Source of the DNA: Bacteroidota bacterium
GTDB taxonomy: Bacteria > Bacteroidota > Bacteroidia > Chitinophagales > Chitinophagaceae
Assembly (NCBI GenBank): GCA_023427575.1
Contig: JAEZAY010000542.1
Location: 1-10,330 of the forward strand
DNA length: 10,330 bases
Direction of reading: 5' to 3'
The notes under the pieces: generated by a model
Told to the model about the DNA's origin: nothing
What the model saw: only the letters and a program-made list of their open reading frames with translations
The model's database searches: none
Part shown: piece after piece, positions 5,524 to 10,190 of the stretch
Layout of the letters: each line of letters opens with the position of its first letter
How positions within the stretch are numbered: the stretch's first letter is position 1
Position numbers and translations under genes: made by a program

Positions 5524-5588
5524 GATTTATTCCGGAGCCCGATTTTTTTGCTCCACTTTTTTTCTAAAAAAAAGTGGAAGGGGTCATT
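5524..5588 (+). repeat. 65-bp hairpin-rich inverted repeat, copy A
   Basis: This 65-mer is the reverse complement of 10266-10330 with a single mismatch, at 5565 in the loop. It contains two overlapping hairpins. The first pairs GGAGC (5534-5538) with GCTCC (5550-5554) across an 11-base loop. The second pairs TCCACTTTTTTT (5552-5563) with the A-run plus GTGGA ending at 5578. The two share TCC (5552-5554), so they are mutually exclusive. It lies 102 bp past the 3' end of the 57-residue membrane gene. It could terminate that operon, although there is no U-tract after the stem in either direction, or be one arm of a mobile unit. Confidence 0.85.
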
Positions 5589-5690: not shown

Positions 5691-5864
5691 TTATGCTCCA
5701 AACCAATCATCCCAATATTCATCCACCAATTTTCCTGCAAGGATTACAAAACTGCCGATAGCTGTAATAAGTCCCTGATTTGAAAATCCACCATAAGCTG
5801 CCATTCCCAGTCCAGCCATTAGTATGATTCTGCCGACTATTTTTGATTGATCCATACAATTCAT
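5691..5864 (-). CDS. Small two-helix membrane protein (57 aa)
   Basis: A 57-residue open frame from ATG (5864-5862) to TAA. It begins MNCMDQSKIVGR, has two hydrophobic segments at about 9-27 and 31-47, and ends with an acidic, aromatic tail (LVDEYWDDWFGA). This is a helical hairpin with no signal peptide, probably in the inner membrane. Met4 (ATG at 5855-5853) is an alternative start giving 54 residues. It lies 33 bp after the stop of the pYEATS gene on the same strand and is probably the third gene of that operon. Small partner membrane proteins often act as toxins, inhibitors or assembly subunits of a larger membrane protein. Nothing in the sequence decides between these, and I do not recognise a family. 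No Shine-Dalgarno is visible, as is usual in this phylum. Confidence 0.7.
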   Translation of the reverse strand: MNCMDQSKIVGRIILMAGLGMAAYGGFSNQGLITAIGSFVILAGKLVDEYWDDWFGA

Positions 5865-5897
5865 TTTAAAAATGGTTCGAATCAGTGAATACGTACT

Positions 5898-7010
5898 TTA
5901 TTTGTTCCAGTAGAACCCCTGCGGCAGATTTGGCAGATCATTTATATCAAGTTCTAGTTGTGTAAAGATCTTTTCCGATTGCACATCTGATAATGCTCCA
6001 ACTGTAAATGCCTCATAGGCGATAACTTCTACAAAAACGTCGGATTCCCCCTGTGGATCAAGTACGCGCATCATCGGCTCAAACGAGTCGTGAAGAACAA
6101 TGGCCACGGGGCCCGATATCGGACTGCGATCTACAGACGAAACTTTTATTTTCACCTTGTATAAGCCAGGGATCATAGATGTACTTACTTCGGCGCTAAT
6201 TTCTCGATTCTCCGTAATTGATTTACCACCCCAGCGGCCTTTCTGTGGATCATCCGGATCGGGACCTGCGCCCTTCGACCTTAAAATCGAGTTCATTAGT
6301 TCTATTTGCGATGCATCATTGGATAGATGTGTCTGCACTAGTCCTGCCGTCCCAATCTGACCATCATTTGGATTATTTAGTGATCTGACAATCGAACGGC
6401 TCACTTCAATCTGTTTTTCTACGTCATGGTCTTTTTTACGCAAGATTTTAGGAAACTCTATGCGAGTCCATAAATAGCCGCAAATCATACCAATGGCGCT
6501 GTACAGAATAATAAGCGCGTACGAAAAAGGGAGATATCTGGTAAAAACAGAACCATCAGTATCATTTGCTGTCGTCAGGGCTTCAGAGATATACTTCGAT
6601 GCTTCATAAATCATTTTCTGAAGCTGAGTGAACTGGGTAAGTGTTATACCGATAATAATTTTAGTTAGCCAGTCCGAGATTTCTTCCAGACTTGTATTGT
6701 CTTTATAACTTGTCCGGCCATTATTTCCATCAGTGTCGGTGGAAGCTGCGGTATTACTCTGAAAGCTTTTTGGGACGGCAAAAATGAATCCAAGTATAGA
6801 TCCGCAGATAAAGTAGGCAGTAATAACTGATATGATGGTGAAAAGCGCATAACTTCTGTTGTCCTTGAAAAAAACTAATACACAAATCGCCAGTAGCGTA
6901 GTGGCAACAATCCCAAGATTAATTATTTTACGCAAAGAGGGCTTTATCGAGTAATCGCCCGTGCTGCCAAAGGTTGAAAAACTAAATAATCGTTTCAGAG
7001 CGAGATTCAT
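5898..7010 (-). CDS. Four-helix membrane protein with C-terminal pYEATS domain
   Basis: A 370-residue inner-membrane protein. Hydrophobic segments lie at about 29-48, 53-78, 115-130 (shorter, possibly re-entrant) and 162-182. A conserved-looking block, NTSLEEISDWLTKIIIG (105-121), precedes the third; similar blocks occur in other multi-helix membrane proteins of pYEATS type (from memory). Basic residues before helix 1 (KPSLRK) and after helix 4 (RIEFPKILRKK) place both ends in the cytosol. A linker (about 190-250) leads to DPQKGRWGG (254-262) and a beta-rich C-terminal domain (about 265-368). That domain has the prokaryotic YEATS pattern: VAIVLHDSF (302-310), EAFTVGA (333-339) and LELDINDLPNLP (352-363). 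pYEATS domains have been proposed to sense or recruit ligands in conflict and signalling systems; the ligand is unknown. It lies 43 bp after the lipoprotein gene and 33 bp before the 57-residue membrane gene. Confidence 0.82.
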   Translation of the reverse strand: MNLALKRLFSFSTFGSTGDYSIKPSLRKIINLGIVATTLLAICVLVFFKDNRSYALFTIISVITAYFICGSILGFIFAVPKSFQSNTAASTDTDGNNGRTSYKDNTSLEEISDWLTKIIIGITLTQFTQLQKMIYEASKYISEALTTANDTDGSVFTRYLPFSYALIILYSAIGMICGYLWTRIEFPKILRKKDHDVEKQIEVSRSIVRSLNNPNDGQIGTAGLVQTHLSNDASQIELMNSILRSKGAGPDPDDPQKGRWGGKSITENREISAEVSTSMIPGLYKVKIKVSSVDRSPISGPVAIVLHDSFEPMMRVLDPQGESDVFVEVIAYEAFTVGALSDVQSEKIFTQLELDINDLPNLPQGFYWNK

Positions 7011-7053
7011 ATGTTATAGTTTTAAATTGGTTATTAGTTAAGGTTCGATTTAG

Positions 7054-7560
7054 TTATTTCACTTTCTTAATGAGGATTTGCCCATTTACTATGTCGAACT
7101 CATAAAGTTCCCAGCCCGGCTGTTGACCATTGTCGGGTTTGCCCTGTAATTGGTTCTCATTGGGGTCTGGTGCTGCCGGGGATTCTTTTAAAGCTGCAAT
7201 CGCGGTAGCGAGTCCTGCTATCGAACTGATGGATTCAGGGATCTTTGAATCAGTAATGAGTCCAAATGATTTGAGATAGCCGTTTTCATAGTCTACCTTC
7301 AGATCCGCCGATCCGATCCCCGATCTGGTCTTTGCATATATGGGATTTTTTAAATCCGGTAGATAGATGATACTGGACTTTTGATTTACATCTTTAGATG
7401 GATAGTTTTCGATCAGGACATATGCTTTTGGGTAGTAAAATTTTAAACCGGTTTCGGTCTTCATATTTTCATCTTTGTATAATTTGATTCCTGCGCAGGA
7501 TGGAAGAATGTTTGCAGAGATGAAGAGTGCGCATAACAATACAAATGAAGATTTTTTCAT
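7054..7560 (-). CDS. Hypothetical lipoprotein upstream of the pYEATS gene
   Basis: A 168-residue protein of unknown function. Residues 1-21 are a signal peptide (MKKSS, then a hydrophobic core) ending in LPSC with Cys22. Pro at -2 is not ideal for a lipobox, but the overall shape fits a lipoprotein. The mature part has a beta-rich block (about 38-105) with GLKFYYPKAYVLIE, IIYLPDLKNPIYA and SGIGSADLKVDYENGYL. A short Ala-rich helix follows (about 112-125), then a Pro/Asn/Gln linker (127-148) and a final strand pair (150-167). The YLPD and YPKAY pattern recalls other unannotated bacterial lipoproteins, but I cannot name a family. It is the first gene of the minus-strand operon. The pairing with a four-helix pYEATS protein suggests an envelope sensor signalling to an inner-membrane partner (inference). 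The start is the ATG before MKKSS, preceded by an A-rich leader. Confidence 0.75.
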   Translation of the reverse strand: MKKSSFVLLCALFISANILPSCAGIKLYKDENMKTETGLKFYYPKAYVLIENYPSKDVNQKSSIIYLPDLKNPIYAKTRSGIGSADLKVDYENGYLKSFGLITDSKIPESISSIAGLATAIAALKESPAAPDPNENQLQGKPDNGQQPGWELYEFDIVNGQILIKKVK

Positions 7561-8261: not shown

Positions 8262-8786
8262 ATGCCTGTAGTAGTAATCGATTCGAAATCACTGGAAAGA
8301 CTAAATAGGTTTCATGCTGAATCCGAAAAAGATTGTTTAATGGATTTTGTAAGTAACGAATTCAAATTTGTTGAAGGAGAAAATTGCGACAGCCCGCCAA
8401 CATTAAAGGAGGTTGGGGCAGGCGTCACTTTGAGGGCGGTAATGCAAATGATGAACAATTATATCAATTCCGCGGGGGAAGAAAAAACGATATGTATTGA
8501 TTACGGCCGAAATATTTTCGAATCTCTGTTATTCAATGAAGGAGGTGAACGAAATAATTGCCAGGGTATAAGATTTTATTTTGGCCTTAAACCAAACAAG
8601 AACGGCGATCCGGAAATTAACTTAATACTGGTTCCCCTGGATGCTGACTCATGTGAAAGTAAAGAACTTAAAAATATCAGCCTTGCGCAAAAGGCAGCTG
8701 ATGACGTAGGCCATGGAACCAATAAGAAGAAGATGACAGGCGCCGGTTCGGATAACAAATATATTTTATTTCATCTTGCACGTTAA
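8262..8786 (+). CDS. Hypothetical cytosolic protein, first gene of the kinase operon
   Basis: A 174-residue protein without signal peptide or membrane helix. I do not recognise a named family. It starts MPVVVIDSKSLERLNRF. A helical part follows (GVTLRAVMQMMNNYI at 54-68), then IDYGRNIFESLL (79-90) and a strand pair with CQGIRFYFGLK (100-110) and INLILVPLDADS (119-130). The C-terminal third is polar and probably disordered (about 131-165). The GIRFYFG-then-LILVPLD layout recalls unannotated Bacteroidota proteins with GIRIYYG and LVLVGVD motifs found near sensor kinases; this is from memory and unverified. The next gene starts 13 bp after its stop, so it is co-transcribed with the seven-helix protein and the kinase. 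It may act as a cytosolic partner of that pathway. The leader is A/T-rich with no Shine-Dalgarno. Confidence 0.7.
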   Translation: MPVVVIDSKSLERLNRFHAESEKDCLMDFVSNEFKFVEGENCDSPPTLKEVGAGVTLRAVMQMMNNYINSAGEEKTICIDYGRNIFESLLFNEGGERNNCQGIRFYFGLKPNKNGDPEINLILVPLDADSCESKELKNISLAQKAADDVGHGTNKKKMTGAGSDNKYILFHLAR

Positions 8787-8799
8787 GTCAGATCGAACG

Positions 8800-9432
8800 A
8801 TGGATTTTTGGGATATTGCGTATCAAAGTCTTTTGCTGGTAACCTTTATATTCAGTCTACGGCTGGTCAATCAAAAGAAATTCAAGATCTTTCCTTATTT
8901 GTTGGGAATTACAAATTTTGTTGAATTATTCATTTTTTTTATAAAACATGAAAATCCTGAATATCCTATACTCTATCATTTCTACATTCCAATAGAATAT
9001 TGTTTGCTGGCGTATTTTTATTACAGAATTACTGATATCGGGTGGGGAAAGAGATTTGCTTTTTACTCGATTTTTGGATTGCCGCTGATTTGCATTTTCA
9101 TTTCATTTAATATAAATCCGTTTAAGTTTCCTACGCTACAATTTAACGTTGCTGGAGTCTGTTTAATCATTCTTGCTTTAATTAGTATTTTCTCGATAAT
9201 GCCAGAAGAAAGCAGTTCTATTTGGACGCATCCGGTATTCATAATAAACATTGGAATACTGGTTTTTTATTCTGGAAATTTACTTTTAATGGGGGTGTAC
9301 AACTATTTAAGAGATTTTAATCTTGAGCTTGCCAAATCGCTTTTCAGAGCGATCAATACATCCTTGAATTTTGTTATGTACTTAATGTTTATAACTGCAT
9401 TTGTATGCCTTTCGAGAACCAGGAAGTTGTAA
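8800..9432 (+). CDS. Seven-helix membrane protein, probable receptor half of a split sensor
   Basis: A 210-residue integral membrane protein with about seven hydrophobic segments, at roughly 8-24, 31-48, 60-77, 87-104, 113-135, 144-166 and 183-203. The C-terminal tail (SRTRKL) is basic, so it should be cytosolic, which puts the N-terminus outside. The start chosen is the ATG at 8800, 13 bp after the upstream stop. An in-frame TTG at 8776 would add eight residues and overlap the upstream gene, and is less likely. Its 3' end overlaps the kinase start by 28 nt in another frame, which points to coupled translation. No ligand-binding domain is visible outside the membrane. Together with a kinase that has only one helix, it probably forms the sensing part of a two-piece receptor. 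The gene is strikingly A/T-rich, as expected for such hydrophobic codons. Confidence 0.75.
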   Translation: MDFWDIAYQSLLLVTFIFSLRLVNQKKFKIFPYLLGITNFVELFIFFIKHENPEYPILYHFYIPIEYCLLAYFYYRITDIGWGKRFAFYSIFGLPLICIFISFNINPFKFPTLQFNVAGVCLIILALISIFSIMPEESSSIWTHPVFIINIGILVFYSGNLLLMGVYNYLRDFNLELAKSLFRAINTSLNFVMYLMFITAFVCLSRTRKL

Positions 9433-10190
9433 ATACGGTAATATTAGGTTGCATCTTGTTTTTATTATTAATCTTCATAATAATTTGGTCTGCTGTTAAC
9501 TACCATAATCAGAAAAAAGAAAAACAATTGTTGGAGGTATCCTTCCAGCAGGAACTTCTGAAAACTCAGCTTGAAACGCAGGAACAAACCTTTCACCAGA
9601 TAGGTGAGGAGCTGCACGACAATATCGGCCAGTTGCTTAGCAGTGCCCGTATGTTGATTGGAATTGCGGAGCGATCGCTTGATTCGGTACCCGGGGCTTT
9701 GAAAACCGCTGACCAAACTCTGGGCAAGGCTATTCAGGACCTGCGGATGTTGTCTAAGTCATTAAATATGGAGTGGCTGCATCAGTTTAATGTAATCGAC
9801 AATTTATACGCCGAAGTGGAAAGGATCAATGCCGCGCAGATGATCCGGGTAGACCTGTTTACTTCGGTTCAAAGTTTACCTCTCCGTCCGGAGTCAAGAG
9901 TGATGTTGTTTCGAATTGTTCAGGAAGCCATGCATAATGCTATGAAACATTCCGAGGCGCAGCATGTTCGCGTTGATATCTCCTGCGATCAGGAAATCCT
10001 GGTGCTTATTAAAGACGACCGTAAAGGATTTAAAATGGAATCCAGTGGTCGTCATGGGCTGGGTTTATTAAATATGAATCACCGCACCAGTCTTTTAGGT
10101 GGCACCATTTCCTGGACTTCACTGCCCGGCGTCGGCACTGAAGTCAGAATTGGCATTCCTGTTCAACATCCAGAAACTACCAATTCATAA
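9405..10190 (+). CDS. HisKA_3-type sensor histidine kinase (NarX/ComP/LiaS class)
   Basis: A 261-residue membrane histidine kinase with one N-terminal helix (about 11-31) and no sensor domain. A coiled coil (about 35-63) follows, then the HisKA_3 dimerisation helix with EELHDNIGQ and the phospho-acceptor His71. The HATPase part (about 165-252) has an N-box EAMHNAMKH (Asn178), a G1 box DDRKGF (204-209) and a G2 box GRHGLGLLNM (215-224), ending in GTEVRIGIP. The G1 box normally reads DxGxGF. Here the first Gly is Arg206 (codon CGT, one base from GGT), which may weaken ATP binding. Kinases of this class normally phosphorylate LuxR/NarL-type regulators; none follows within the 140 bp left in the window. 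Input most likely comes from the seven-helix protein whose gene overlaps it by 28 nt. Confidence 0.9.
   Translation: MPFENQEVVNTVILGCILFLLLIFIIIWSAVNYHNQKKEKQLLEVSFQQELLKTQLETQEQTFHQIGEELHDNIGQLLSSARMLIGIAERSLDSVPGALKTADQTLGKAIQDLRMLSKSLNMEWLHQFNVIDNLYAEVERINAAQMIRVDLFTSVQSLPLRPESRVMLFRIVQEAMHNAMKHSEAQHVRVDISCDQEILVLIKDDRKGFKMESSGRHGLGLLNMNHRTSLLGGTISWTSLPGVGTEVRIGIPVQHPETTNS

Follow-up and report, generated by a model that had tools for sequence, protein, structure and literature searches.

A three-gene Bacteroidota operon for a lipoprotein, a membrane pYEATS protein, and a 57-residue membrane protein: a possible mosaic conflict system

The operon, its products, and the divergent kinase module

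The window, by which we mean the whole 10,330-nucleotide stretch analyzed, carries three closely spaced genes on the minus strand and, divergent from them, a signaling module on the plus strand. Its relevant features are the following.

7054..7560, minus strand: gene for a 168-aa lipoprotein, beta-rich, lipobox cysteine Cys22
5898..7010, minus strand: gene for the 370-aa membrane pYEATS protein
6465..6944, minus strand: four-helix membrane domain, residues 23-182 of the 370-aa protein
5916..6212, minus strand: pYEATS domain, a YEATS beta-sandwich, residues 267-365 of the 370-aa protein
5691..5864, minus strand: gene for a 57-aa two-helix membrane protein with the C-terminal end WDDWFGA
5551..5579 (approximate), minus strand: hairpin past the 57-aa gene, likely operon end
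8262..10190, plus strand: divergent signaling module, possible regulator
8262-8786, plus strand: gene for a 174-aa protein of no family
8776-9432, plus strand: gene for a 218-aa multi-helix protein
9405-10190, plus strand: gene for a HisKA_3 histidine kinase

The sequence-only reading had described three tightly packed minus-strand genes with membrane- or lipid-anchored products, and this arrangement is confirmed, with intergenic gaps of 43 and 33 bp. The hairpin 3' of the 57-aa gene (-20.1 kcal/mol, z -4.3, equalled by 0 of 200 shuffles) likely marks the end of the operon; it is not among the entries of a simple terminator scan of the window, and promoter and terminator scans of the window gave no more matches than chance. 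In codon usage the 57-aa ORF resembles a gene, and just 1 of 52 spurious window ORFs equals its score. FG-GAP, 3-keto-disaccharide hydrolase, and DUF7133 genes lie downstream of the trio, and among nine window proteins scanned there is no lipase, protease, or cell-wall hydrolase adjoining it. Six window proteins compared with PADLOC-DB 2023 matched no defense model, the sole entry being CARF_TM at E 0.024, and five compared with NCBIfam gave no meaningful match.

The 370-aa protein carries membrane helices followed by a pYEATS domain on a single chain, with a long helix (residues 160-211) linking the two. As the same reading had proposed, its C-terminal domain has a genuine YEATS-type fold, a beta-sandwich. 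Against Pfam PF20305 (pYEATS) the window protein scores 18 bits, the curated cut-off being 26.9; the model is matched at E <= 0.01 by 39 of 43 aligned proteins, the window protein included, at best with 8.5e-16. When the family was compared by sequence with solved structures, nine matches came up at E 10 or better, and no YEATS structure is among them. The four-helix domain has no Pfam name and is also found in TPR- or repeat-tailed proteins of other phyla; its motif is GxxxGFxFAxPKS ... LEEISDWLTKII ... GYLWTR, and the signature GFxFGIP...ISDWLTKI, a portion of which served to fetch the loci described below, is also near-invariant in an independent protein-search alignment. The nearest relatives, P0002-P0008, share 49-64% identity with the 370-aa protein and sit on metagenome contigs. 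A search of 396 genomes from one order, that of Limnovirga, found relatives at E <= 1e-10 in six of them, with only a few first-look candidates scored per genome.

The three genes of the divergent module overlap end to start, and the gene one would look for next, just past the window end, is that of a response regulator. Were the locus to serve a two-component-regulated envelope stress response without killing, the kinase would sense damage and induce the operon, and the pYEATS protein and lipoprotein would protect or repair. The divergent position of the HisKA_3 module agrees with this, as does the presence of similar modules beside relatives in loci L016, L020, L050, and L059 (loci carry L numbers throughout); in L059 the kinase, a trypsin, and a YLATT-pYEATS protein share one strand. 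Of the loci with homologues of the window kinase, 8 belong to the 36 genomes in which HisKA_3 was counted; they form five independent groups (L005, L016, L020, L050, and the Chryseobacterium group L059/L063/L071/L072) against about one expected, with a Poisson probability of about 0.003 that is post hoc and compares loci and background counted under differing detection settings. HisKA_3 kinases are common, however (307 in 177 Mb), the L005 kinase is of another type, 701 bp split the trio operon from the kinase module, and most loci lack such a kinase, homologues being found in 11 of 80. The association of the module with relatives is modest and suggestive, and we think a pure stress response unlikely. 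By eye, and not by search, the first genes of L016 (112 aa) and L050 (108 aa) look like that of the 174-aa protein (GIRFYFG..LILVP).

Distribution of the three genes

That the lipoprotein, the pYEATS protein, and the small protein, which the sequence-only reading took as one module, form a recurring unit was not borne out. Loci of 370-aa relatives were fetched with flanks of at most 8 kb, cut short where a contig ended, the contigs of P0002-P0008 lying outside the set; in 80 of 80 loci the relative occurs without the other two genes, the outcome that the sequence-only reading had named as refuting it. The lipoprotein-family profile found nothing among the ORFs of these loci at E <= 0.1, apart from which there was one chance match at 0.17; for the 57-aa protein, no match was better than E 1.7. 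The closest relatives among the fetched loci, L001-L003, have neighbors other than the lipoprotein and 57-aa genes, and the L003 gene has no close same-strand neighbors. A search for co-occurrence detected the lipoprotein in 0 of 17 whole genomes holding 370-aa relatives, an absence that we trust because the same profile finds it in genome G105 at 8e-50. A conserved trio is rejected within the loci and genomes searched (80 loci, 17 genomes, and the 396-genome sample). The exact trio looks local, and its absence from everything searched lessens its importance as such; the nearest relatives, on their metagenome contigs, fall outside the search, so the trio may persist in a narrow clade.

The lipoprotein family has 12 homologues and the signature 'KFYYPKPYLLVE...YLPDL...GxGS...DSKIPE'; the structure model of the lipoprotein is poor (pLDDT 64), with no structural match at E <= 0.001. 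G105 is the only one of the 396 genomes of the order with a lipoprotein relative, and it is not among the six with 370-aa relatives. The family was detected in 4 of 395 genomes of a phylum sample (the order-sample genome and three weak matches) and in 2 of 294 of one family sample (the order-sample genome and one fragment), samples that overlap and in which few first-look candidates were scored per genome. In L087, the best relative from a genome follows, at a distance of 6 bp, the gene of a multi-helix patatin-type protein (Patatin E 1.3e-4, under the cut-off), and in L090 a class-3 lipase gene lies opposite in strand to a distant relative (E 5.6e-4) and faces it; no lipase was recognized among the ORFs listed for L088 and L089, where the two remaining weak relatives lie. 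Of 110 viral-contig stretches that fitted a search pattern, none encodes a relative.

As a separate matter, a general rule that some lipoprotein, of whatever family, adjoins the 370-aa family was rejected (10 of 91 versus 55 of 786 genes, p 0.20), the ten including at least one false call, the patatin of L026.

For the 57-aa protein, a probable homologue is encoded by a 54-aa ORF on the minus strand (L103:1498-1662). In L103 and L104 it lies 14 bp behind a SLATT_2 gene, which itself follows a class-3 lipase (Lipase_3). Its E-value of 0.008 per genome is by itself not significant, as 244 genomes were searched and about two such matches are expected by chance. Its score of 70 compares with at most 46 for 6149 other small ORFs of the loci and at most 61 in 20,000 shuffles, and among 115 loci the ExWDDWF pattern occurs only in those of genome G937 (L103, L104, and L105). 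We accept it as a probable homologue because of the complete 54-aa ORF, the shared end motif, these scores, and its place as the last gene of a comparable operon. Ten other weak matches of the 57-aa model (205 genomes, E 0.017-0.1) are at chance level, and viral contigs held no match to a single narrow DNA pattern that encodes the ExWDDWF end. The operon at L104:5168-8610 encodes a 120-aa protein, a secreted 394-aa protein, the class-3 lipase, a SLATT_2 protein bearing an extra C-terminal domain, and the 54-aa WDDWF membrane protein.

The three genes might, then, be unrelated chance neighbors, with the 370-aa protein acting alone. The trio's absence elsewhere in the searched set, the nonsignificant enrichment of lipoproteins, and the solitary gene of L003 would fit, but the three share one strand, short gaps, and one strong hairpin after the third gene, and each has a relative or probable relative beside membrane- or lipid-acting genes. 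We hold this reading, too, to be unlikely.

Genes beside relatives of the pYEATS protein

Neighbors of genes combining transmembrane helices with pYEATS (TM+pYEATS) were collected on the same strand, at <= 150 bp per step and up to three steps each way; 10 short or overlapping ORFs of the 67 were dropped, and 57 were scanned. A link to conflict systems, suggested earlier, finds support here, since lipases, proteases, a nuclease, and cell-wall hydrolases lie beside some relatives. Among the families listed (25 of 44) are patatin, Tle1-like lipase, trypsin (2), Endonuclease_NS (2), papain, and Amidohydro_2 (2), with muramidase, CHAP with PG_binding, M15 with PG_binding, and VanY as the cell-wall types. 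Examples by locus are as follows.

L006: VanY
L007: Amidohydro_2
L022: trypsin
L024: M15 and PG_binding
L025: Endonuclease_NS and trypsin
L026: patatin
L030: CHAP and PG_binding, Tle1-like lipase
L052: muramidase, papain, PLAT

Neighbors of other kinds include HSP90, TonB receptor, MarR, and TraG; the HSP90-type gene near L029, L031-L033, and L035 is an ordinary neighbor. In L001-L003, no recognized conflict-type enzyme lies in the same operon.

Several further arrangements were seen. An operon at L046:602-8732 combines a caspase, an AAA/MoxR-like ATPase, and a protein with SLOG and pYEATS, and an operon with the pYEATS protein as its last gene recurs in L046, L036, L057, L068, and L074. Homologous secreted proteins are encoded near pYEATS genes in three lineages (L013:9613-10926, L029:9359-10663, and L058:6290-7399), that of L013 having no Pfam match. 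Homologous amidohydrolases occur near TM-pYEATS genes at L007:6614-7759 (Amidohydro_2), L023:2014-3342, and L005:15178-16926, and directly adjoin them in L007 and L023. L050:7803-11502 is a compact defense-like island with a divergent kinase module; it encodes a four-helix protein without pYEATS, a lipoprotein, a 106-aa protein, an M15-like peptidase, and a TIR-like protein (TIR_2 E 0.04), followed, by eye, by a two-helix protein and another TIR-like protein.

A cell-wall hydrolase lies no more than two genes away in 4 of 36 TM+pYEATS loci (L006, L024, L030, and L052), and by eye none of the four starts with an evident signal peptide. The background (M15_4, CHAP, muramidase, and VanY) was 9 in 19.7 Mb of four genomes, 3 of the 9 falling, by coordinates, in these very loci. 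From it, 0.07-0.1 hydrolases are expected in 36 x 6 kb, and the Poisson probability of at least four, 7e-7 to 4e-6, is a guide only, because three of the four background genomes were chosen for the association and the families were picked post hoc. Near four-helix genes without pYEATS, an M15_4 enzyme is one ORF away in L054 and two in L056, at least in these; in L050, an M15-like motif seen by eye, without Pfam match, is three ORFs away and a 62-residue hydrolase fragment fourteen. In L058 (pYEATS only) a hydrolase is six ORFs away. Six of the eight hydrolases (all but those of L006 and L050) were compared with PHROGs, and 6 of 6 match phage endolysin families.

With such pairings in mind, the four-helix domain could be a chromosomal, gated, holin-like membrane effector that a sensor opens, releasing endolysin-like hydrolases or lipases made without evident signal peptide, for ligand-triggered self-lysis or envelope attack. 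The sensor would be the cytosolic pYEATS domain here and TPR or other repeats elsewhere, and the window would hold a pared-down version, with an outer-membrane lipoprotein and the 57-aa membrane protein standing in for the enzymes. The four-helix domain occurs in several phyla, and the endolysin-like pairing was seen in Bacteroidota and two Pseudomonadota loci. We rate this reading as rather improbable.

On a viral contig (L085:1932-5166), by eye, a bare four-helix protein is encoded opposite in strand to an endolysin/Rz/Rz1-type cassette, which holds an embedded Rz1-like lipoprotein; being on the opposite strand, the four-helix gene is therefore probably cargo, not a holin.

Very doubtful is a role in the immunity to, or the delivery of, secreted antibacterial toxins, with the family and lipoprotein shielding the producer from the lipases and cell-wall hydrolases encoded next to relatives. 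The Tle1-like, patatin, muramidase, CHAP, M15, and Endonuclease_NS neighbors, a repertoire that resembles type VI effectors, would suit it, and so would the patatin-type gene and, weakly, the class-3 lipase gene found close to relatives of the lipoprotein. But neighbors such as trypsin, papain, SLATT_2, and, beside stand-alone pYEATS, caspase better fit intracellular conflict systems, the families listed (25 of 44) for the 57 neighbors hold no secretion machinery bar one TraG-type gene (L028), and no toxin gene lies beside the window trio.

Proposed mechanism and comparison with known systems

We tentatively favor a mosaic conflict system aimed at the envelope, in which a cytosolic pYEATS domain would gate the membrane effector at its core. 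The operon would have been put together within one lineage, out of components that Bacteroidota reshuffle between operons of this type. The 370-aa protein would form the core, with its four-helix domain in the inner membrane and pYEATS in the cytosol, an orientation that we infer. Binding of a putative ligand, a modified peptide or small molecule, to pYEATS would change the state of the membrane part, which would then probably open or break the membrane. The lipoprotein, in the periplasm or outer membrane according to its sorting signal, may be the far-side partner, as anchor, guard, or restrainer, the 57-aa protein may be a small membrane subunit or regulator, and the divergent histidine kinase module may control expression of the operon.

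This mosaic view is favored because of the YEATS fold, the patchy distribution, and the effector and hydrolase neighbors of relatives, and also because a lipoprotein relative follows a patatin-type gene and the probable 57-aa homologue follows SLATT_2. For the effector role we draw on relatives, since the window trio has no lipase, protease, or hydrolase beside it, and the view is weakened by the lack of a PADLOC match, by L001-L003 with their lack of conflict enzymes, and by the ordinary genes beside some relatives. If it holds, the YEATS fold, an acyl-lysine reader in eukaryotes, gates a bacterial membrane effector, and the unnamed four-helix domain would gain a role as the element common to systems that couple it with endolysin-like enzymes.

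The pYEATS domain (PF20305) reportedly goes back to Burroughs and Aravind, J Bacteriol 2020; the window protein shares its YEATS beta-sandwich but falls below the curated cut-off. No paper on prokaryotic or bacterial YEATS proteins was found in searches of one open-licence library. In PMC7159879, 'YEATS' appears three times, each as an author name; the paper describes peptidoglycan attack, SLATT pores, and trypsin and papain-like effectors in conflict systems, with SLATT as a predicted pore former.

Phage holin/endolysin/spanin cassettes resemble the loci of some relatives, where endolysin-like hydrolases that show no evident signal peptide accompany a multi-helix membrane protein, joined in L050 by a lipoprotein. 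They differ in that the membrane protein here is fused to a putative ligand-binding domain, the window holds no endolysin gene, and in L085 the four-helix gene opposes the cassette.

The combination of membrane helices with pYEATS is already named in Pfam, as YLATT ('YEATS-Like-Associating Three TM', PF20303) plus PF20305, for example in L059 of Chryseobacterium oleae, which matches PF20303 at 1.8e-20 and lies beside trypsin and histidine kinase genes. Common to both are N-terminal membrane helices and a C-terminal pYEATS domain on a single chain of similar length, with a histidine kinase module nearby. The window differs in its unnamed four-helix domain and in having no trypsin gene; PF20303 has no match in the 370-aa protein up to E 10, and a scan of the 43 aligned proteins does not have it among the 18 families listed.

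SLATT effectors (PF18183, SLATT_2) differ in that the window protein has no SLATT match, a search for the SLATT 2TM domain in the 370-aa and 57-aa proteins finding none up to E 10, and nucleotide-signal partners were not seen. They too combine N-terminal membrane helices with a C-terminal domain, and in L103 and L104 the SLATT_2 gene is followed by a small WDDWF membrane protein, as in the window.
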